Shown here piece by piece: positions 1,094 to 17,385 of a stretch of DNA of 18,764 nt. A model generated the notes under the pieces. The model made no database searches. It was not told the DNA's origin and was given only the letters and a program-made list of their open reading frames with translations. The DNA is from Alistipes sp. Its GTDB lineage: Bacteria > Bacteroidota > Bacteroidia > Bacteroidales > Rikenellaceae. How positions within the stretch are numbered: the first letter of the stretch is position 1; each line of letters begins with the position of its first letter. The stretch covers positions 1 through 18,764 of the forward strand of contig JAIDKM010000369.1 in NCBI GenBank assembly GCA_029051915.1, in the 5' to 3' direction. The position numbers and the translations under genes are program-made.

Positions 1094-1120
1094 AAAAGGA
1101 GCACTTATGTGCTCCTTTTT
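1094..1120. terminator. Hairpin terminator, probably bidirectional
   Basis: AAAAGGAGCAC and GTGCTCCTTTT form an 11-bp perfect stem with a TTAT loop, followed by a T-run on the plus strand and T4 on the minus strand. It abuts the stop codon of the porin gene, which it should terminate. It would also stop any rightward transcript from the mobile-element side. Confidence 0.8.
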
Positions 1121-2133
1121 CACAATCCGTATCCGAACCTCAGCATTCCTGCGCATTTCCAACTGCCGCCGCTGCGGATGCAATGCAAGGCGGGTTGCAG
1201 ATAGCATGTTCGGGCGAGCGGGATCTTTACGGTCGCCTCCGTCGCCCATTCGTCGCCGATGGCGAATCGGGCGCAGTTCGAGACCAGCCCGAGTTCCGCC
1301 TTGCGGCAACGCATCAGAAAGCCCGCTCCGGCGTACATGTTGCAAGCGGCCTTCCGCGACGGGCTGGCCGAATATTGCAACAGCGCATATAGCGACGGCG
1401 AAATCCGAAGTTCCGCATAGGCCCAGAGGGCGACGTTCGTCATCTTCCCGGCTCTCTCCGTTTCAGAAGCGATGCCGCTAAAAAAAGTAGTGCCGATATT
1501 AAAATTGCTGCCATTGTTCCGATAGTTGAGCGATGCGATACCGAATATCCCGTCCGACGCGGGACAAATGCGGAAGACATTCTGCCGTCCCGCGAACCGA
1601 TTATGCCCCGTGCCGTTGTAGAGCGTGGTCCGGAATTGCCAGTGCTCCGTTTCGAAGGCGTAATGTATGCCGAATGACGAGAGCGGATAGTTGGCAATCG
1701 GGGCGTTGGCCGAAATCGTGGGAAATATGCCGCACGAGCTGTTGGTGAATAACGAGGTAACGGGCGAGACGAAATAGTCTTCGTTCATATTGCGGATGCC
1801 GAGGAACAGCATATGCGCCTCTCCTTGCCATCGAATGCCCGCTACGGCGAGCCCGAGCGGCAGATTCTCCTCCTCGATGTTGGAGAAGGTCTGCCAATCG
1901 TCGATTAGCCGTTCGTCCCTCGTTCGGGCGATGCTGATGGTCGCCAGATCGAAATGAAACCGTTCGCCTGCGGCCAGCGTGAAGTCAGCGCGCAGCAGGT
2001 TTACCCAGTTGGCGGCCCGACGGAAATCCGTCTGCATCTCGGTGGTGTACTCCGCCGAGAGCTGCTGCGCCGCCAAGCGGTGGCTGCTCATGGCAGCCAC
2101 CGACAGCGTCAGAAAAAATACGATTCTTTTCAT
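1120..2133 (-). CDS. OprB-like outer-membrane porin, operon partner of mgtA
   Basis: This 337-residue protein has a signal peptide of about 22 residues (MKRIVFFLTL, hydrophobic core, LAAQQ), followed by alternating polar and aromatic stretches typical of an outer-membrane beta-barrel. The section LFLGIRNMNEDYFVSP, then NSSCGIFPTISANAP and YPLSSFGIHY resembles the conserved block of the carbohydrate-selective porin (OprB) family. The gene starts 15 bp after the mgtA stop on the same strand, so the two are almost certainly co-transcribed. The C-terminus LRFGYGL is barrel-like. I infer that it lets Mg2+ or another small solute through the outer membrane for the pump; substrate specificity cannot be read from the sequence. 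It contains several cysteines, unusual for a porin. Family placement is moderately sure. Confidence 0.72.
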   Translation of the reverse strand: MKRIVFFLTLSVAAMSSHRLAAQQLSAEYTTEMQTDFRRAANWVNLLRADFTLAAGERFHFDLATISIARTRDERLIDDWQTFSNIEEENLPLGLAVAGIRWQGEAHMLFLGIRNMNEDYFVSPVTSLFTNSSCGIFPTISANAPIANYPLSSFGIHYAFETEHWQFRTTLYNGTGHNRFAGRQNVFRICPASDGIFGIASLNYRNNGSNFNIGTTFFSGIASETERAGKMTNVALWAYAELRISPSLYALLQYSASPSRKAACNMYAGAGFLMRCRKAELGLVSNCARFAIGDEWATEATVKIPLARTCYLQPALHCIRSGGSWKCAGMLRFGYGL

Positions 2134-2148
2134 CGGTCGAGTTCATGA

Positions 2149-4794
2149 TTAAAGCCATTTTTGGAATCGGCGGATATACCACACCTTTACCGCCTGCGTC
2201 AGGGTGCAGTAGGCCAGCAGCGAGAGTACGAGCCAAGGGAAGTAGCTCCACGGCAGGGGCATGAGTCCGACGCTCGCTCCCAGCGAGGTGAAGGGCAGTA
2301 CGATGCCGACAGCCATGACGACGCCTGTCATCAGCAGCACGGGCCACGAAGCACGGCTCTGGATGAACGGAATCTTCCGCGTGCGGATCATGTGGACGAT
2401 GAGCGTCTGCGACAGAAGTCCCTCGATGAACCAGCCCGACTGGAACAGCGTCTGCATCTCGGTCGACTGGCAGCCGAAGACGTACCACATCAGCAGGTAG
2501 GTCGTGATGTCGAAGATCGAGCTGATGGGGCCTATCCAGATCATGAAACGGCTCAGGTCGGAGGAGTCCCAGCGGCGGGGTTTGCGCAGATAGTCGTCGT
2601 CCATGCGGTCGAACGGAATGGCGGTTTGCGAAATATCGTACAGCAGATTCTGGATGAGCAGGTGGATGGAGAGCATCGGTAGGAAGGGCAGGAAGGCGCT
2701 CGCCACCAGCACGCTGAACATGTTGCCGAAGTTGGAGCTGGCCGTCATCTTGACGTATTTGATGATGTTGCCGAACGTGCGGCGCCCCTCCTCGACCCCG
2801 TTTTCGAGCACCATGAGGTCTTTTTCCAGTAGGATGATGTCGGCACTCTCCTTGGCGATGTCCACCGCCGAATCCACCGAGATGCCGATGTCCGACTGGC
2901 GCAGGGCCGCCGCATCGTTGATGCCGTCGCCGAGGAATCCCACGGTGTTGTCCTGCGCTTGCAGCAGCGTGATGATTTCGGTCTTCTGCATCGGCGTCAG
3001 TCGGGAGAAAACCGTGGCACGCTGCACGGCGAGCCGTTTTTCGGCGGCGTCCATCGCTTCCAGCGCCGGCCCCGTTACGCTTCGGGTCGTGTCTATGCCC
3101 ACTTGCCGGGAGATGGTGCGCACTACCGCTTCGTTGTCGCCCGAAAGGACTTTCACTTCGATTCCGTGTTCATGCAGCCGGCGAACGGCATTCGCAGCCG
3201 ACTGCTTGGGAGGATCAAGAAAGGCAAGATAACCGATCAGCACCATATCGCGCTCGTCCTCTACGGCGAAGCCGCCGCCCTTGTCCGAAAAACTCTTGTG
3301 AGCCACGGCGAGTACGCGCAGCCCCTCGTTGTTCATCCGTTCGCTTATCTGCTTCGCTTTGCGGCGCAGCTCGTCGGTCAGGGGCACCGCTTCGCCGCCG
3401 ACTTCCGTGTGCGAGCAGACATCCAGCATCTCGGCCACGGCGCCTTTGGTGATGATCTGACGCTTCCCCTGCCGGTCTTCCACCACCACGGACATGCGGC
3501 GGCGGGTGAAGTCGAACGGAATTTCGTCGACCTTGCGGTAGTTCTCTTTCAGCGACTCCATGTCGAGCTCCTTCACGTGCGAAAGGATCGCCTTGTCCAT
3601 CAGGTTGCGCAGTCCGGTCTGGAAATAACTGTTGAAGTAGGCGTGGCGCAAAATCCGCTTGTCCTCATCGGCGCTTCCGTCGGCGTTGACATGCCGTTCC
3701 AATACGACCCGGTCGCAGGTCAGCGTCCCCGTCTTGTCGGTGCAGAGGATGTTCATCGCGCCGAAGTTCTGAATGGCGTTCAGATCCTTGACGATCGTCT
3801 TCTTGCGCGACATCGCGACCGCGCCTTTCGACAGGTTGGCCGTAACGATCATGGGCAGCATCTCCGGCGTCAGGCCCACAGCCACCGAAACGGCGAAAAG
3901 GAAAGCGTCCAGCCAGTCGCCCTTGGTCAGGCCGTTGACCAGAAAGACGAAAGGCACCATCACCAACATGAAGCGGATGAGCAGCATGCTCACCTTGGCG
4001 ATGCCGCGGTCGAAAGCCGTGGTCGCCCGATGTCCGGCGATGCTTTTGGCGATGGTTCCCAGATAAGTGTCGCCCGCCGTGGCGAAGACGATGCCCGTGG
4101 CGGCTCCGCTCACCACGTTGGAGCCCATGTAGCAGATGTTGTCCAGCTCGACCACGCTGCCCTTGCGGAATCGTTTCCCCTGCACTTCGGGGTGCTTCTC
4201 GATGCTCTCCGACTCGCCGGTGAGCGACGCCTGACTGATGAACAGGTCTTTCGATTCGACGATGCGTAGGTCGGCAGGCACCATGTCGCCGGCGGAGAGC
4301 AACACGAGGTCGCCCGGCACGAGGGCGTCGATGCCGATCTCCTCCGTCTCGCGGCCGGCACGCTTCACGGCGCAGGTATTCGTTACCATGCGTTGCAGCG
4401 CCGCGCTCGACACGCTTGCTTTCCACTCCTGCCAGAAACGCAGGATAGCGCTGAGCACCACCATCGTGGAGATGATGATGATCGCCGTCCAGTCCTGCTC
4501 CGCCGGTTCGGCAAGATAGACATCGAGCAGATAGGAGATGACTACCAGCCCCGTCAGCACGCCGATGAACGGATTGATGAAGGCCTTGACGAACATTGTC
4601 AGCGGATTTTCACGCCGCTCGTGTTCCACCTCGTTCTTGCCGTAAAGCGACTGCCGCCGAGCGACCTCGGCGCTGTCGAGACCGTCGGGCGAGGTCTGAA
4701 AATAGTTGAATACCGCAGCCAGCGGTTGTCCTGCGGCCAGAAATACCTTTTCGGCATTGAATGTCGAGAGGCTCTTTTTTCTTCTCTTCCACAT
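2149..4794 (-). CDS. mgtA: Magnesium-translocating P-type ATPase, MgtA/MgtB type
   Basis: The protein is a P3B-type ATPase that imports Mg2+ across the inner membrane using ATP. Visible landmarks are the actuator loop SLTGES (about residue 190), the membrane motif GLTPEMLPMIV, the phosphorylation site CTDKTGTL (Asp at about 353), the hinge LGDGINDAAALR, and a hydrophobic C-terminal domain. The run NLSKGAVAMSRKKTIVKDLN and the tail segment QTAIPFDRMD are characteristic of MgtA. I chose the ATG at 4794 (881 aa, near the usual 900). The alternative GTG at 4836 adds 14 residues but falls five bases after the -7 box and would give a leaderless message. The porin gene follows after 15 bp, and a two-component system lies upstream on the same strand. 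No long leader is present, so a Mg2+-sensing leader RNA like that of enteric mgtA is unlikely. Confidence 0.95.
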   Translation of the reverse strand: MWKRRKKSLSTFNAEKVFLAAGQPLAAVFNYFQTSPDGLDSAEVARRQSLYGKNEVEHERRENPLTMFVKAFINPFIGVLTGLVVISYLLDVYLAEPAEQDWTAIIIISTMVVLSAILRFWQEWKASVSSAALQRMVTNTCAVKRAGRETEEIGIDALVPGDLVLLSAGDMVPADLRIVESKDLFISQASLTGESESIEKHPEVQGKRFRKGSVVELDNICYMGSNVVSGAATGIVFATAGDTYLGTIAKSIAGHRATTAFDRGIAKVSMLLIRFMLVMVPFVFLVNGLTKGDWLDAFLFAVSVAVGLTPEMLPMIVTANLSKGAVAMSRKKTIVKDLNAIQNFGAMNILCTDKTGTLTCDRVVLERHVNADGSADEDKRILRHAYFNSYFQTGLRNLMDKAILSHVKELDMESLKENYRKVDEIPFDFTRRRMSVVVEDRQGKRQIITKGAVAEMLDVCSHTEVGGEAVPLTDELRRKAKQISERMNNEGLRVLAVAHKSFSDKGGGFAVEDERDMVLIGYLAFLDPPKQSAANAVRRLHEHGIEVKVLSGDNEAVVRTISRQVGIDTTRSVTGPALEAMDAAEKRLAVQRATVFSRLTPMQKTEIITLLQAQDNTVGFLGDGINDAAALRQSDIGISVDSAVDIAKESADIILLEKDLMVLENGVEEGRRTFGNIIKYVKMTASSNFGNMFSVLVASAFLPFLPMLSIHLLIQNLLYDISQTAIPFDRMDDDYLRKPRRWDSSDLSRFMIWIGPISSIFDITTYLLMWYVFGCQSTEMQTLFQSGWFIEGLLSQTLIVHMIRTRKIPFIQSRASWPVLLMTGVVMAVGIVLPFTSLGASVGLMPLPWSYFPWLVLSLLAYCTLTQAVKVWYIRRFQKWL

Positions 4795-4840
4795 AGCATT
4801 TCGTTTTTTCAATGATGATCGTGTTCGCGTTTTCACGCGG

Positions 4841-4848
4841 CAAAGGTC
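4841..4848 (-). promoter_or_regulatory. Probable -7 box of mgtA-porin operon
   Basis: The minus strand reads GACCTTTG, seven of eight matches to TAnnTTTG, followed by CCGC. It lies 46 bp upstream of the preferred ATG at 4794. No TTTG lies 19-21 bp upstream. That position is occupied by the end of the repeat array at 4871-4910, as expected for a promoter that depends on an activator. Confidence 0.5.
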
Positions 4849-4870
4849 GGCCGTTTCATCGGCAAAGGCC

Positions 4871-4910
4871 GTTAGAGAAGAATTAGAACGCTATTAGAAA
4901 ACCATTAGAA
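4871..4910 (-). promoter_or_regulatory. Four direct repeats at 11-bp period: predicted response-regulator operator
   Basis: On the minus strand TTCTAAT occurs at 4910-4904, 4899-4893 and 4888-4882, and CTCTAAC at 4877-4871, each separated by exactly four bases. Head-to-tail sites one helical turn apart are the usual target of OmpR/PhoB-family regulators. The array ends 22 bp before the mgtA -7 box, overlapping the -33 position. The adjacent response regulator gene belongs to that family and is the obvious candidate binder. The repeats are seen directly; the binding partner is inferred. Confidence 0.7.
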
Positions 4911-4948
4911 CCGTCGCAGGCCGGGCACGGCACTCCGGCAGACGACAA

Positions 4949-4978
4949 AAGGCTGCATCCGTTGTAAGATGCAGCCTT
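4949..4978 (-). terminator. Terminator of the two-component operon
   Basis: AAGGCTGCATC and GATGCAGCCTT form an 11-bp stem with an 8-base loop. On the minus strand the hairpin is followed by TTTTG. It lies 32 bp after the histidine kinase stop and before the mgtA operator, so it separates the two transcription units. Confidence 0.75.
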
Positions 4979-5009
4979 CCGAAAGCGGGAGCGCAGGCGA
5001 CCGGTGCGG

Positions 5010-6380
5010 TCAGACGTGCGGCAGTTCCACCACGAACGTGGTGCCCTTGCCCTGCTCCGAGTGTACGGCGATTTCGCCCTCGTGCAGCCGGACGATCTTT
5101 TGCGCGAGCGCCATGCCGATGCCGTGTCCCTCGACGGGTTGTTCCTGCCGCCCCCGATAAAAGAGCGTGAACAGTGCCTGCTTGTCCGCCTCGGACATGC
5201 CGATGCCGTCGTCGGAGAAGCGCAGCACCGTCCATTTGTCCCAATACGAGATCTGAACGTAGGATGCGTGGTCGGCGGAATACTTGCAATTGTTCTCTAT
5301 CAGGTTGGAGAAGGCGATCGAGAGCAGGTAGAGGTTGCCGCGGACGGTTATCAGGCGGTCGTCGTCGGCCTCTTCCTGCTCGAACAGCAGATGGATGCGA
5401 TAGTCGGGACGGGCACGGAGGAGGCACTCGCGGACGTCGAGCAGCAACTCGTCCAGACGGATTTCCTCCATCTTGATCCGCTCCTTCTGGTAGTCCGCCT
5501 TGGCAAGGTTCAACAATCCGTCGACAAGGCGCGTCATACGCCGGGCATCTTGCAGTGCGGCGGCGATGGCGGCACGGTATTGTTCGCCGGTACGCTCTTT
5601 CTGCAACGAAAGGTCGAGCCCGGCGATCAATGCGGCGAGGGGCGTGCGCAATTCGTGGGAGACGTTGCTGACGAACATCTTCTGCGAGCCGAACGATACG
5701 TCCAGCCGTTCGAGCAGGGCATTGAACGTGGTGCACAATTCGCCCAGTTCGTCTTTTTCCTTTTTGACGGGCAGGCGGCGCGAGATTTCCGAGGCGGTGA
5801 TTTCGTCCGTCTCCTTCACGATACCCCGAATAGGGCGCAGGGCGGCGCGGGCGAGCAGCCAGCCCACCACAGCGAGCATCGCCAGTCCGACGATCAGCAA
5901 CACGAGGAGCGTACGCCTCAGTTGGGCGAGGTTGGCATGACCGTAGCCGTCGTAAGCGGCAGCGGTTACTACATACTCTTCGCCCTCGAAGAGGTAGACC
6001 ATTCCGACCGCCTGATAGTCGCCCACGAAGAACTCGATCTCCCGCTTTTGCAGGATGTCGTCGATCATCGCGAGGTCCTCCTTGACGATGTCGTTCTGCA
6101 CGGCGTCGTGGTAGAGCATGCGGAAGTCGGGGGTGTAGACCGCCACCTCCACTTCGTGGATGAACTTCGTGTTGTTCAGATAGATTTCTTGCATGATCGC
6201 GGCGTCCACCCGATGCTGCAAGAACAGGTTCGCCTTGGTAACCGCCTCTCTTTTCAGGTCGTGGAAAAAGGTCGCTCTGCGCGTGCGCTCGCTGCCCGCA
6301 TAGATCAGCACCATGCAAAGCAGGAATACCGTCGCCGTGGCGCAGGTGTTTTTCAGCGTGAGGGCGGTGCGGATCTTCAT
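5010..6380 (-). CDS. Membrane sensor histidine kinase with HAMP domain
   Basis: This is a 456-residue sensor kinase. A first membrane helix (about 13-28) is followed by a periplasmic region of some 130 residues, a second helix (about 157-177) and a HAMP linker (about 178-230). The H-box SNVSHELRTPLAAL carries the phospho-accepting His242. The N-box NLIENNCKYS (about 359-368), G1 motif DDGIGM (390) and G2 motif GHGIGMALA (418) complete the ATP-binding domain, so it should be active. The start ATG at 6380 overlaps the stop of the response regulator (ATGA), showing tight co-translation. The reading frame stays open upstream into the regulator gene, but that part is a shadow. The ligand is unknown. 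Position next to mgtA suggests it senses Mg2+ or a related envelope signal, which is inference. Confidence 0.93.
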   Translation of the reverse strand: MKIRTALTLKNTCATATVFLLCMVLIYAGSERTRRATFFHDLKREAVTKANLFLQHRVDAAIMQEIYLNNTKFIHEVEVAVYTPDFRMLYHDAVQNDIVKEDLAMIDDILQKREIEFFVGDYQAVGMVYLFEGEEYVVTAAAYDGYGHANLAQLRRTLLVLLIVGLAMLAVVGWLLARAALRPIRGIVKETDEITASEISRRLPVKKEKDELGELCTTFNALLERLDVSFGSQKMFVSNVSHELRTPLAALIAGLDLSLQKERTGEQYRAAIAAALQDARRMTRLVDGLLNLAKADYQKERIKMEEIRLDELLLDVRECLLRARPDYRIHLLFEQEEADDDRLITVRGNLYLLSIAFSNLIENNCKYSADHASYVQISYWDKWTVLRFSDDGIGMSEADKQALFTLFYRGRQEQPVEGHGIGMALAQKIVRLHEGEIAVHSEQGKGTTFVVELPHV

Positions 6381-7063
6381 GGACGGTCGGTCAATATGAA
6401 CCCGACGCCGGGCCGGGTATGTATGAGTTTCACGCCGAAGTCGCGGTCGATCTTTTTGCGCAGGTAATTGATGTATACGTCGATGAAGTTCGTGCCCGTG
6501 TCGAAATGCGTGTTCCACACCTTTTCGGCGATTTCCGCGCGACTGACGACCCGTTCCGCGTTCTCCGTCATGTACACCAGCAGGTTGTACTCTTTGGGCG
6601 AGAGTTTTATCTGCGTGCCGTTTCGGCTGACTTCCTTTCGTTTCAGGTCGATGCGCAGGTCGGCATACGTCAACTCTTCCGGTTCTTTCTCGGGAGCATG
6701 GGGCTTGCGGCGGAGCAGCGTCCGGACGCGTGCCGTCAGTTCGCGGAAGTCGAAAGGCTTCACCATGTAGTCGTCGGCCCCGGCATCGAAACCGTCCAGT
6801 TTGTCGTCCGTCGAGCCGAGCGCCGTCAGCATCAGAACGGGTACGTCGGCATTGATTTGCCGAATCTCCTTGCAGAGTTCGAAGCCGTCCATCTTCGGCA
6901 GAACGACATCGGAGAGCACCAGATGGTACTCGCCCGTGCGGAACAGACGCAGCCCCATCGCTCCGTCGTAAGCCACCGTCGTGCGGTAGCCGTTCTCTTC
7001 CAGCCCCGCACGCAGCAGGTCGGCCACACGCTTGTCGTCTTCTATGATCAGTATGGAGTGCAT
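6377..7063 (-). CDS. OmpR/PhoB-family response regulator
   Basis: This is a 228-residue two-domain regulator. The receiver domain has the acidic pocket IIEDD (residues 6-10), phospho-acceptor Asp52 in LVLSDVVLPKMDG, Thr80 and Lys102 (MVKPFDF). The C-terminal winged helix (about 130-225) shows LSPKEYNLLVYM, VVSRAEIAEKVW and FIDVYINYLRKKI, ending in VGFILTDRP, all typical of the OmpR/PhoB class. I chose the ATG at 7063. A longer frame from 7159 would run through the -7 box TACCTTTG at 7093-7086 and its extra residues match no receiver domain. The kinase gene follows with a 4-base overlap. The probable targets are the 11-bp repeats upstream of mgtA and perhaps its own promoter. Confidence 0.95.
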   Translation of the reverse strand: MHSILIIEDDKRVADLLRAGLEENGYRTTVAYDGAMGLRLFRTGEYHLVLSDVVLPKMDGFELCKEIRQINADVPVLMLTALGSTDDKLDGFDAGADDYMVKPFDFRELTARVRTLLRRKPHAPEKEPEELTYADLRIDLKRKEVSRNGTQIKLSPKEYNLLVYMTENAERVVSRAEIAEKVWNTHFDTGTNFIDVYINYLRKKIDRDFGVKLIHTRPGVGFILTDRP

Positions 7064-13179: not shown

Positions 13180-14082
13180 ATGAAACCTACGCTTTTCGTT
13201 TTGGCTGCCGGAATGGGTTCGCGTTACGGCGGTCTGAAGCAGCTCGACGGGCTCGGCCCCCACGGCGAAACGATCATGGACTATTCGATTTTCGACGCCG
13301 TGCGCAGCGGCTTCGGCAAGGTGGTCTTCGTCATCCGTCGCGATTTCGAGCAGGATTTCCGGGAAAAAGTGCTTGCGAAGTATGAGAACCATATTCCGGT
13401 GGAGGTCGTCTTCCAGTCGGTCGACGCCCTGCCCGAAGGCTTCGCCTGCCCGGCGGAGCGCACCAAACCGTGGGGCACCAACCACGCCGTGCTGATGGGC
13501 AAGGATGCGATCCATGAACCTTTCGCCGTCATCAATGCCGACGACTTCTACGGTCGCGACGGCTTCCGCGTGCTGGGCGAATGGCTCTCGAAGGCCGAGG
13601 GCGAGAACCGCTACTGCATGGTAGGCTACCGTGTGGGCAACACCCTCTCGGAGAGCGGCACTGTGTCGCGCGGCATCTGCCACACCGACGCCCGGGGCTT
13701 TCTGACCGACGTGGTGGAGCGCACCGACATCGCCCGCGTGAACGGCGAAATTACCTTCACGGGCGACGACGGCCGCCCTGCGACGACCGACGAAACGACG
13801 CCAGTGTCGATGAACATGTGGGGCTTCACGCCCGACTACTTCCGCTATTCGGAGGAGATTTTCCGGCGTTTCCTGACGGAAAACATCGACAAGCCCAAAG
13901 CGGAGTTCTACATTCCGCTGGTTGTCAACGAGCTGATCGTCAGCGGCCGCGCAACGGTCGAAGTACTCGACACGACGGCCCGCTGGTTCGGCGTTACCTA
14001 TGCCGAAGACCGGCAGGGCGTGGTCGACAAGATCCGCGAACTGATCGCCGTCGGCGAATACCCCGAAAAACTGTGGAGCTGA
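13180..14082 (+). CDS. Sugar nucleotidyltransferase-like protein of the gal cluster
   Basis: This 300-residue protein begins with the nucleotide-sugar pyrophosphorylase signature LAAGMGSRYGGLKQLDGLGP (8-27), in which the glycine-rich loop and Lys20 bind the nucleoside triphosphate. FAVINADDFYG (about 114-124) supplies the metal-binding Asp. WGTNHAVLMG and NMWGFTP fit the fold. It is shorter than, and not clearly within, the GalU or RmlA families. Enzymes of this group join a sugar-1-phosphate to a nucleotide. Its place 69 bp after galE in a galactokinase cluster without galT suggests that it makes a UDP-sugar, perhaps from galactose-1-phosphate, but the substrate is not shown by the sequence. 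Confidence 0.8.
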   Translation: MKPTLFVLAAGMGSRYGGLKQLDGLGPHGETIMDYSIFDAVRSGFGKVVFVIRRDFEQDFREKVLAKYENHIPVEVVFQSVDALPEGFACPAERTKPWGTNHAVLMGKDAIHEPFAVINADDFYGRDGFRVLGEWLSKAEGENRYCMVGYRVGNTLSESGTVSRGICHTDARGFLTDVVERTDIARVNGEITFTGDDGRPATTDETTPVSMNMWGFTPDYFRYSEEIFRRFLTENIDKPKAEFYIPLVVNELIVSGRATVEVLDTTARWFGVTYAEDRQGVVDKIRELIAVGEYPEKLWS

Positions 14083-14097
14083 AAAAGGCCCCTATCG

Positions 14098-14140
14098 AAA
14101 AAGGCCCCTGCCGCAGCGATTTGCAGCAGGGGCCTTTTTT
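14098..14140. terminator. Bidirectional terminator with duplicated 5' arm
   Basis: AAAAAGGCCCCTGC (14098-14111) pairs with GCAGGGGCCTTTTTT (14126-14140), leaving a 14-base loop. It ends the galactose cluster on the plus strand and prfC on the minus strand. The first 12 bases of the 5' arm also occur just upstream at 14082-14093, so a longer alternative hairpin can form. Confidence 0.85.
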
Positions 14141-14158
14141 ACGCTTCGGACGGATTCA

Positions 14159-15742
14159 TCAGAACTCCGATGCGAAGTAGAAGCGTATGTCCTTGAAATT
14201 TTCCTGCGCGAGAGCCAGGGCATAGCTCGTGTCGGCCAGGAAGACGTCGCGGCCATGTTTGTCGACGGCCATGTTGGTGTGCTTGCGCTTCTTGAAGTCG
14301 GCGAGCTGCGCGGCGTTGTCGCTCTCGATCCAGCAGGCTTTGTGGATCGAAATGGGCTCCCAGCGACACGAAGCGTTGTACTCGTGCTCCAGACGATATT
14401 GGATGACCTCGAACTGGAGCGCACCCACCGTGCCGATGATCTTGCGGCCGTTGAGGGCGCTGGTGAAGAGCTGCGCGACGCCTTCGTCCATCAACTGATC
14501 GATTCCTTTGGCCAGCTGCTTGAATTTCAGCGGATCGGCATTCTCGATGTAGCGGAACTGCTCGGGCGCGAACGACGGGATGCCGGTGAACTTGAGCGCC
14601 TCGCCCTCGGTGAATGTGTCGCCGATCTTGAAGTTGCCCGTGTCGTGCAGACCCACGATGTCGCCCGGATAGGCGAAGTCGATCACCGATTTTTTCTCGG
14701 CCATGAAAGCCGTCGGCGACGAGAATTTCATCTGCTTGCCGCTGCGCACGTGGAGGTAGTTGCGGTTGCGCTCGAACGTGCCGGAACAGATCTTCAGAAA
14801 GGCGATGCGGTCGCGGTGGTTGGGATCCATGTTGGCATGGATCTTAAAGACGAAGCCCGACATTTTACCCTCCTGCGGCTCCACGGTGCGTGTCTCGGTC
14901 GGTGCGGGCCGCGGCGAGGGGGCGATGCGGACGAAACACTCCAGAAGCTCGCGCACGCCGAAGTTGTTGACGGCCGATCCGAAAAATACGGGTGCCAGCT
15001 CGCCCTGCAGGTAGGCGTCGCGATCGAACTCGTCGTAGACCCCCTCGACGAGCTCGACGTCCTGCCGCAGCTGCTCGGCGAACTGTCCGCCGATGTGCTG
15101 GGCGAGTTCGGGAGCATCGAGGTCGGAGATCTCCACGGTAGAAGCATCGGCCGTCAGCTTCTCGTCGGAAGTGAAGAGCGAAAGATTCTTCTCGTAGAGA
15201 TTGTAAACCCCCTTGAATGTGGGCCCGTTGGAGATGGGAAAGGCCAGGGGCCGCACGCGGATGTGCAGCTCGCGCTCCACCTCGTCGAGCAGATCGAACG
15301 GCTCTTTGGAAGGGCGGTCGAGCTTGTTGATGAAGACGATGACGGGGGTCTTGCGCATGCGGCAGACGTCCATCAGCTTGCGCGTCTGCGCCTCGACGCC
15401 CTTGGCACCGTCGATGACGATGATGACCGAGTCGACAGCCGTCAGCGTGCGGTAGGTGTCCTCGGCGAAGTCCTCGTGGCCCGGCGTGTCGAGGATGTTG
15501 ATCTTGCAACCGGCGTATTCGAAGCCCATGACGGCCGTGGCGACCGAGATGCCGCGCTGACGCTCGATCTCCATGAAGTCGGACGTGGCGCCCTTCTTGA
15601 TCTTGTTGCTCTTGACGGCTCCGGCCACGTGGATGGCACCGCCGAAAAGCAACAGTTTCTCGGTGAGCGTGGTCTTACCGGCATCCGGGTGCGCGATGAC
15701 CGCAAAGGTGCGGCGGCGTGTTATTTCGTCTTGTAAAGCCAT
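14159..15742 (-). CDS. prfC: Peptide chain release factor 3
   Basis: This 527-residue translational GTPase removes RF1 and RF2 from the ribosome after peptide release. The G1 loop AHPDAGKTT is at residues 17-25. The switch region [16 protein letters not shown], the G3 motif DTPGHEDF and the G4 motif NKLD follow. The order [21 protein letters not shown] distinguishes RF3 from EF-G. Length is normal (529 in E. coli). It lies 83 bp after nadB on the same strand. A weak -7-like TATTTTTA occurs 11 bp upstream of the ATG (15761-15754), so it may be read through from nadB or have its own promoter. Confidence 0.97.
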
Positions 15743-15825
15743 AGTTCAGTAATTAAAAATAACGGAAGCCGGTAGCCAAAGCCGTGTTTTGCCTGACCGC
15801 AAGCCGATCTCCGGGAAATCGATTT

Positions 15826-17385
15826 TTAATTCTCCTGTTGGTAATCCATGTTATAGTGGCAGCCGACCGACTCCTTGATGTCGCGGCCCTGCTTGATGAC
15901 CAGATAGGCCACGGCGATCATGTTGCGCAGCTCGCACAGCTCGCGGTTGGGCTTGGTCTTGCCGTAGAGCTCCTCGGTCTCCTCGTAGAGGGTCGAGAGA
16001 CGCCGCATGGCCCGCTTGAGCGAGAGGTTCGAGCGTACGATACCCACGTAATTGGACATGATGGTCTGCATCTCGCGCTTCGACTGGATAATCATCAGCA
16101 TCTCCTCGGTATGCTGCGTGCCCTCGAAATCCCAGTCGGGAATCCCCTCCTGGAAATCCACCTTGTCGAGCTGGGCCGTGGCGTGGCGCGCTGCCTGGTC
16201 GCCGTAGACGACTGCCTCGATCAACGAATTGGAAGCCAAACGGTTGGCGCCGTGCAGCCCCGTGCAGGAAGTCTCGCCCAAGGCATAGAGCCGTCTGACG
16301 GAAGTCTGACCGTCGGTATCTACCCGCACGCCGCCGCAACAGTAGTGCGCCGCCGGAGTTACGGGAATCAGGTCGCGCGTGATGTCGATGCCGATCGAGC
16401 GGCACTTCTCGTAGATGTTGGGGAAGTGGCTGCGCACGGCCTCGGGATCCTTGTGCGTAACGTCGAGGTAAACGAAATCCTCGCCCCGGCGGGTCATTTC
16501 GCGATAGATCGCCCGGGCCACGACGTCGCGCGGTGCCAGCGACTTCATCGGATGATACTTGTCCATGAACTCCTCGCCCGACTGCAGCCGCAGAATCGCG
16601 CCGAAACCGCGCATCGCCTCGGTAATGAGGAAGTTGGGTTTCTCGCCCGGGTTGTAGAGCGTTGTCGGATGGAACTGGATGAACTCCATGTTCTCGGTGA
16701 TGGCTTTGGCTCGGTGGCACATGGCGATGCCGTCGCCCGTGGCGACTATGGGGTTCGAAGTCGTGGAGTAGATATTGCCGCAGCCGCCCGTCGCCACGAT
16801 GGTGAACTTCGCGAGCATCGTTTCGATTTCGTTGGTCGCCTCGTTGAGCACATAGGCCCCGAAGCAGGCCAGGCCGCGGGTATGGCGCGTAACGAACTCG
16901 CCCAGATGGTGCTGCGTCAGCAGGTCGATGGCGAAATGGTGTTCCAATACGGTGATGTTCGGGTGGCGGCGAACCGATTCGACGAGCGCCCGTTCGATCT
17001 CGGCACCCGTGAGGTCTTCGTGGTGAAGAATGCGGTGTTCGGTATGTCCGCCTTCGCGATTGAGCTCGAAACGCCCATCGGGAGTCTTGTCGAAGCGCGT
17101 GCCCCATCCGATCAGGTCGCGGATCAACTCGGGAGCGCGCCGCACGACCAGCTCCACGGCTTTTTCGTCGCACTTGCCGGCACCGCATACCAGCGTGTCC
17201 CGAATGTGTTTTTCGAACGTGTCGGGTTCGTAGGTTACCGAGCAGATGCCTCCCTGTGCATAGTCGGTGTTGCACTCCCGGATCTCGCCTTTCGTTACCA
17301 CGGTAACGTGTCCGTGGGCGGCGGCTTTCAGCGCGAACGAGAGTCCCGCCGCACCGGATCCGATGACCAGAAAGTCGGTTTTCAT
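15826..17385 (-). CDS. nadB: L-aspartate oxidase
   Basis: This 519-residue flavoenzyme oxidises L-aspartate to iminoaspartate, the first step of de novo NAD synthesis. The FAD dinucleotide motif VIGSGAAGLS is at residues 7-16. The substrate-domain motifs EFIQFHPTTLY, and GETSCTGLHGANRLASNSL near residue 380, are diagnostic. The C-terminal helical domain is complete. I chose the ATG at 17385 (KTDFLVIG), which places the FAD motif at the usual distance. A start at 17412 would overlap the promoter in the repeat. No nadA or nadC is seen in the window. prfC follows after 83 bp. Confidence 0.96.
   Translation of the reverse strand: MKTDFLVIGSGAAGLSFALKAAAHGHVTVVTKGEIRECNTDYAQGGICSVTYEPDTFEKHIRDTLVCGAGKCDEKAVELVVRRAPELIRDLIGWGTRFDKTPDGRFELNREGGHTEHRILHHEDLTGAEIERALVESVRRHPNITVLEHHFAIDLLTQHHLGEFVTRHTRGLACFGAYVLNEATNEIETMLAKFTIVATGGCGNIYSTTSNPIVATGDGIAMCHRAKAITENMEFIQFHPTTLYNPGEKPNFLITEAMRGFGAILRLQSGEEFMDKYHPMKSLAPRDVVARAIYREMTRRGEDFVYLDVTHKDPEAVRSHFPNIYEKCRSIGIDITRDLIPVTPAAHYCCGGVRVDTDGQTSVRRLYALGETSCTGLHGANRLASNSLIEAVVYGDQAARHATAQLDKVDFQEGIPDWDFEGTQHTEEMLMIIQSKREMQTIMSNYVGIVRSNLSLKRAMRRLSTLYEETEELYGKTKPNRELCELRNMIAVAYLVIKQGRDIKESVGCHYNMDYQQEN

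Follow-up and report, generated by a model that had tools for sequence, protein, structure and literature searches.

A four-heptamer array ahead of mgtA in Alistipes as the probable activator site of an adjacent OmpR-type regulator, in a promoter design recurring across Bacteroidota

In enteric bacteria, the two-component system PhoP/PhoQ controls both MgtA and MgtC, and its sensor, PhoQ, carries an acidic patch. Among other regulators of the OmpR/PhoB class, CusR recognizes a dyad, and PhoB, whose site sequence is unlike the heptamer TTCTAAT considered here, takes the place of the -35 element with its promoter-near site. To our knowledge, little is known about classical two-component regulators acting at the promoters of Bacteroidota, where the sigma factor recognizes another promoter code. 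In this study, we analyzed a contig of 18,764 nucleotides from Alistipes sp. (GenBank assembly GCA_029051915.1, contig JAIDKM010000369.1; hereafter, the window), in which a row of four TTCTAAT-type heptamers stands ahead of mgtA, the gene of a Mg2+-transporting ATPase. The order along the minus strand is response regulator, sensor kinase, hairpin, array, -7 box, mgtA and a porin-like gene. Like the PhoB box and OmpR/PhoB sites in general, the array consists of direct repeats at 11 bp, but it differs from the PhoB box in its four units and its fixed offset to the Bacteroidota -7 box. With PhoP/PhoQ, the neighboring pair shares a sensor whose model aligns with the PhoQ sensor; unlike PhoP/PhoQ, it scores best with CusRS/CzcRS models, its genes adjoin the target, and little room is left for a leader RNA. 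It resembles CusRS/CzcRS/CopRS in its best-scoring NCBIfam models and in that related pairs often stand beside CusA/CzcA-type pumps, although both of its scores fall under the curated cut-offs and the site is four direct repeats. ArcA also has three to five direct repeats at 11 bp at most of its sites (excerpt of PMC3798270, which also cites polymerase recruitment by PhoB and OmpR). A literature search found no publication on this site or system by title or start of the abstract, subscription papers and preprints being mostly outside its scope.

The array (4871..4910, minus strand) reads TTCTAAT-ggtt-TTCTAAT-agcg-TTCTAAT-tctt-CTCTAAC, with all three start-to-start steps equal to 11 bp. The title of the initial annotation had given four exact repeats; three are exact (4910-4904, 4899-4893 and 4888-4882), and the fourth (4877-4871) is a near copy, CTCTAAC, with two mismatches. 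These three are the only exact TTCTAAT copies in the window. The paired heptamer pattern (up to two mismatches) matched three times, compared with a mean of 0.01 and a maximum of 1 in 200 dinucleotide shuffles, and the best four-unit score was 26/28, the top of 300 first-order simulated windows being 19. Even when any 11-bp self-repeat was allowed, irrespective of the heptamer, the window scored 19/21 and the best of 300 simulations 17. Within the assembled genome (1.78 Mb, 82% complete), this is the sole three-unit array at up to three mismatches, and two weaker heptamer pairs lie elsewhere. The array has the direct repeats at 10 to 11 bp that mark OmpR/PhoB-class sites, and we consider it very probably an activator site of the adjacent OmpR-type regulator, which would replace the -33 contact for mgtA and the porin-like gene; binding and activation are both predictions from sequence.

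The promoter itself is consistent with such a role. Its -7 box, GACCTTTG (4841..4848, minus strand), departs from the consensus TAnnTTTG at the first base, and its TTTG and the start of unit 4 are 33 nt apart. This box would place the transcription start at about 4834. The array, which we propose to be bound by two regulator dimers, would then span about -76 to -37, short of the -33 position at which it had been thought to end. The consensus of the Bacteroides sigma factor is TAnnTTTG at -7 and TTTG at -33 (excerpt of PMC7366714), and the latter is absent from the window promoter, as the initial annotation had stated. The same excerpt reports that no -33 motif was found in Flavobacterium johnsoniae, so the missing -33 TTTG is weaker evidence outside Bacteroidales. 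The window thus combines what is expected of an activator-dependent promoter, namely a -7 box, no -33 TTTG and a site abutting -33. The TTTG at 4866-4863 was rejected as a -33 box because it lies just 14 nt ahead of the -7 box, and a scan of 4700-5100 for sigma-70-type promoters gave no match. A 12-mer, CGGCAAAGG(T/C)CG, is present twice 22 bp apart, at 4838-4849 over the -7 box and at 4860-4871 at the end of the array. We took ATG 4794 as the mgtA start because GTG 4836 falls at the inferred transcription start; the resulting protein start, MW, is also found in several relatives. The predicted 5' untranslated region is then about 40 nt long, which would not readily accommodate an mgtA-type leader RNA. 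An Rfam scan of the window at the gathering threshold gave no match, and no mgtA leader RNA family was found upstream, in agreement with the earlier proposal that control here differs from that by the enteric leader RNA.

Comparison within the genus shows what has been kept. Genome G022 carries regulator, kinase, array, a degenerate mgtA and porin in the order of the window, and its array is TTCTAAT-ggtt-TTCTAAT-acgg-TTCTAAT-cgct-TTCTAAC. The units are conserved, two of the three spacers differ, and the distance from unit 4 to TTTG is 33 nt in both cases. Of the 25 genus genomes sampled, the same 2 have both regulator and array (Fisher p 0.003), and the remaining 23 lack the design (see below) as well as any close regulator (identity of the best match, 39% at most). 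The mgtA of G022 (L036:9763-11621) lacks a large middle part, with regulator, array and porin retained, and two recombinase-like reading frames (named by eye) lie beyond it at 13494-15994.

To look at the array independently of its neighbors, we used only the exact triple repeat as query against named genomes and obtained at least 118 stretches. Among the matches listed, TTTG stood exactly 66 nt from the start of the first unit in 48/88 Bacteroidota, 1/28 from other phyla and 0/2 unclassified. In the first 80 stretches, the figures were 35 of 62 Bacteroidota (4 at the next commonest offset), none of 17 from other phyla and none of 1 unclassified; in the further 38, looked at only once the design had been fixed, they were 13 of 26 (3 at the next commonest offset), 1 of 11 and 0 of 1. 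The sole listed match outside Bacteroidota with TTTG at this offset, L186, belongs to Chlorobiota, a neighbor of Bacteroidota. The genera with the +66 arrangement include Bacteroides, Phocaeicola, Prevotella, Dysgonomonas, Pedobacter, Sphingobacterium, Flavobacterium, Chryseobacterium, Elizabethkingia, Myroides, Weeksella, Belliella, Raineya and Chitinophaga. The check proposed for the initial annotation, conservation in relatives, therefore came out in its favor, and far more widely than the mgtA locus, as many Bacteroidota carry such arrays with a constant interval to the -7 box, often beside related two-component genes.

For a common description, 119 loci (the 80 stretches, the loci found with kinase and MgtA, and L036) gave 49 sites in 47 loci, or 48 sites after L129 (Bacillota, with a weak unit 4) was dropped as a chance match. 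Twelve sites from the further stretches raised the set to 60, and two in L290 and one in L296 to 63 distinct sites. Their design is three TTCTAA(T) units and one YTCTAAC, followed by 22 nt and TAnnTTTG. The first two units are TTCTAAT, their final T being present in 62/63 and 60/63, respectively; unit 3 is TTCTAAN, and unit 4 is YTCTAAC (C in 51/63). The upstream letters of the -7 box are T in 58 and A in 62 of the 63; site selection had required the TTTG of this box, not the preceding TA. A -33 TTTG at spacings of 17 to 23 nt was found at none of the 63 sites, although the letters of unit 4 alone exclude TTTG at some of these spacings. A hairpin in the spacer before the -7 box was discarded as a common feature of the design, being detected at only 9/60 sites at p <= 0.05. 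Strong hairpins, at times with a T run, do stand between unit 4 and the -7 box in L248, L087, L303, L113 and L036, giving the impression that the promoter of the next gene encloses the upstream operon's terminator.

A chance or neutral minisatellite origin of the window array has to be weighed at this point. Two metagenome-assembled Bacteroidales genomes hold rows of TTCTAAT with an 11-bp period and repeated spacers (L069, L090, L111, L115-L117, L134, L144 and others), which make up twelve of the stretches without TTTG at +66 among the first 62 from Bacteroidota. These tandem copies would fit such an origin, but precisely they lack the +66 TTTG, whereas between the window and G022 two of three spacers have changed with the units retained and the promoter offset fixed. 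Given this conservation and the shuffles and simulations above, we regard chance and minisatellite readings as exceedingly improbable and discarded them.

The activator reading suggests the following mechanism. A stimulated sensor kinase would give a phosphorylated regulator which, judging from the OmpR/PhoB family, would bind the array head to tail as two tandem dimers, the four heptamers lying on one face of the helix with their 11-bp period. The promoter-near dimer would occupy the -33 contact zone and recruit RNA polymerase in lieu of a -33 box, and mgtA and the porin-like gene would be turned on together. We argue for direct contact with the polymerase because the offset to the -7 box is fixed. 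It is very unlikely that the regulator binds the array mainly for repression or anti-repression. ArcA, of the same family, is predominantly a repressor and has two to five direct repeats at 11 bp, but its activation sites have no conserved location (excerpt of PMC3798270), while the array has a fixed upstream offset to the -7 box, and the lack of a -33 box at 63/63 sites fits direct activation.

The regulators themselves point in the same direction. In a tree of 86 distinct sequences (from 88 rows, one tblastn segment each, covering at least residues 20 to 210; shorter segments such as those on L223 and L071 were dropped), 34 rows have the design at their locus, and 31 of these fall within a single clade of 37 (SH-aLRT 97). 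The clade members carry the helix FDTGTNFIDVYINYLRKKID or a close variant, which we take to be the recognition helix, with F after TGTN (Y in two rows); relatives outside the clade mostly have V there, where this part was extracted. Six members lack the design in their locus: two from G667, which has a 3-mismatch site in its genome; one each from G699, with a site elsewhere in its genome, and from G189 and L102, where the TTTG is one base off; and one from G702, for which none was found. Regulator-kinase genes resembling those of Bacteroidota, along with arrays, are also found in L102 and L142, two perhaps misbinned contigs under the labels Beijerinckiaceae and Saccharibacteria.

Searches with the kinase and the regulator gave a similar picture. 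Among 18 kinase-bearing genomes, 9 matched the design and none its reversed control; it was present in 8 of 9 genomes with a kinase of at least 41% identity (G667 with 3 mismatches) versus 1 of 9 with a more distant kinase. A regulator at E <= 1e-40 was found in 11 of 12 genomes with arrays versus none of 6 without, in a set of 18 genomes that were chosen, not sampled, and in which G157 was counted by its array from the order-level MgtA survey, G406 had only 3-mismatch sites, and the G129 regulator was just 46% identical. Array and regulator thus mostly occur together across the genomes examined, as the initial annotation would lead one to expect. A scan of viral contigs with the regulator gave one relative, at 32% identity, which was not used.

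It could still be that another OmpR-family regulator binds the array and that the neighbor is there by history. This is very unlikely in our view, even though some arrays are found apart from two-component genes, and kinases from outside the clade can likewise adjoin 11-bp TTYTAAT-like arrays. In its own genome, the neighbor is the sole regulator match at E <= 1e-40; where arrays stand away from the pair, a similar regulator is encoded elsewhere in the genome (58% identity in G383, 59% in G699, 66% in G054 and 63% in G157, but 46% in G129 and none in G317); and the six design-less genomes and the co-occurrence within the genus speak for the neighbor as well. In L231 and L234, whose kinases fall outside the clade, 11-bp arrays of TTTTAAT stand behind the kinase gene in place of TTCTAAT, which suggests that site and regulator changed together.

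Surveys by protein helped to separate the regulator from its presumed target. The kinase search covered 296 genomes of the phylum and gave 40 matches, of which we examined 30. In 16 of these 30 loci, our own included, an 11-bp array (p <= 0.01, from 100 letter shuffles) lies within 600 nt downstream. At the level of the order (393 genomes), nine genomes carry MgtA at E <= 1e-230; arrays were found in our own and in 5/8 others (64 to 73% identity), the full design in 4/9, and the three most distant MgtA loci (48 to 54% identity) had no array. One more distant mgtA, at L252 (G208), is preceded by another row of repeats, TCTAACTTCC-like and with a 10-to-11-bp period.

Some results weigh against the array being the activator site of this regulator. 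In the MgtA survey of 296 phylum genomes, where we examined 30 of 58 matches, only our own locus showed a clear array in the 700 nt upstream; L192 reached p 0.045, and G667 has a 3-mismatch site further upstream, ahead of mgtC. From the three surveys together, we conclude that the array tracks the regulator and not MgtA as such. The full design with up to 3 mismatches matched 17/393 order genomes and its reversed control 7/393, and the triple repeat alone with 2 mismatches was not above its reversed control (70 genomes each); weak matches carry little meaning because the reversed controls match too, and the latter result was set aside without evidential use. Likewise, 40 of the 88 listed Bacteroidota stretches with the triple repeat have no TTTG at +66, the -7 box of the window is itself GAnnTTTG, with a first-base G shared by 4/63 sites, and 13 of 48 sites have no two-component gene in view, some through the end of the locus. 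At the level of genomes, G702 has the kinase and no array, G317 (89% complete) has the design and no regulator match, the G129 regulator reaches only 46%, and G189, outside the 18 kinase-bearing genomes, has two sites with 2 to 3 mismatches and a kinase of 38% identity. Finally, many rows of the tree were picked via the array, which favors clustering, so that the clade is not independent proof.

The response regulator of the window (6377..7063, minus strand; 228 aa) has a receiver (PF00072) and a winged-helix DNA-binding domain (PF00486) above cut-offs, and its best NCBIfam model is the heavy-metal regulator TIGR01387 (CusR/CzcR/CopR; 231.5 bits, under the curated cut-off of 279.2). The sensor histidine kinase (5010..6380, minus strand; 456 aa) has HAMP, HisKA and HATPase_c domains, and two membrane spans (by eye) flank an extracytoplasmic PAS-like domain; it scores 208.6 bits with TIGR01386 (CusS/CzcS/CopS), under the curated cut-off of 292.55. 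Both assignments bear out the sensor kinase and OmpR/PhoB-class regulator named initially. The modelled sensor part aligns with PhoQ and has a PhoQ-type fold. An acidic patch like that of PhoQ was not evident by eye in the aligned domains, and no model named PhoP or PhoQ was among the 25 best shown for regulator or kinase. Between the kinase stop and the array, a hairpin with 11-bp arms followed by TTTT (4949..4978, minus strand) is a possible terminator of the regulator-kinase operon, although a stricter terminator scan did not call it. The product of mgtA (2149..4794, minus strand) is a Mg2+-transporting P-type ATPase (TIGR01524, 1265.4 bits versus a cut-off of 610.75), whose best solved chains are Mg2+-transporting ATPases, e.g., 8uy7. 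In Bacteroides thetaiotaomicron, BT0988 is annotated as mgtA (PMC10434189). The gene 3' of it (1120..2133, minus strand) encodes an outer-membrane porin-like protein, "porin" being the name given initially; no Pfam or NCBIfam family matched at E 0.001, and its relatives adjoin mgtA or follow an array of their own in L036, L106, L123, L124, L247, L248 and L301.

Across the 48 sites, a related kinase gene ends 3 to 335 bp upstream on the same strand in 28, a regulator lies further upstream in 2, and a divergent pair is found in 5. Within 4.5 kb downstream, 26 have MgtA, MgtC or MgtE, and efflux genes of the CusB/CusA type are found at 9 others; an Omp85-like protein is encoded at 4, an outer-membrane efflux protein at 1 and the porin at 1. 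Genes of Mg2+ transport, porins, Omp85-like proteins or metal efflux therefore follow 41/48 sites; 7 have none, two of them cut by the locus end. In Chryseobacterium jejuense (L127), one array stands ahead of mgtC-mgtA and a second ahead of efflux genes; in G157, a single intergenic gap separates divergent mgtA and efflux genes and has heptamers in either orientation, short of the full design; and G383, of the same family, has a zero-mismatch design ahead of efflux genes. Where the initial annotation saw a local switch for pump and porin, our evidence points to a promoter code that is widespread and also serves MgtC, MgtE and CusA/CzcA-type efflux.

We are less sure of the signal. At other loci, the design stands ahead of MgtA, MgtC, MgtE and CusA/CzcA-type efflux genes, and on this basis we propose that the system responds to low Mg2+ or to some other perturbation of divalent cations on the outer side of the inner membrane. 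That toxic metals or envelope damage are sensed instead of Mg2+, a CusRS/CzcRS-like sensor having recruited mgtA among several ion pumps, is a serious possibility that we place just short of an even chance. We are evenly divided on the broader idea that one CusRS-like clade is the Bacteroidota counterpart of PhoPQ, sensing outer divalent cations and running, via a rigid four-site promoter, Mg2+ uptake (MgtA, MgtC, MgtE and porin) and CusA/CzcA-type export as one regulon readable from the DNA code. The site belongs to a known kind but takes a form that is new, rigid and widespread, and a probable regulon goes with it. With its fixed geometry, this DNA pattern lets sequence alone predict, in many Bacteroidota lineages, where a regulator would bind and which genes it is likely to target. 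How an activator may replace the -33 element in Bacteroidota becomes directly testable with a single promoter, and the pattern suggests that magnesium import and metal export are controlled jointly.
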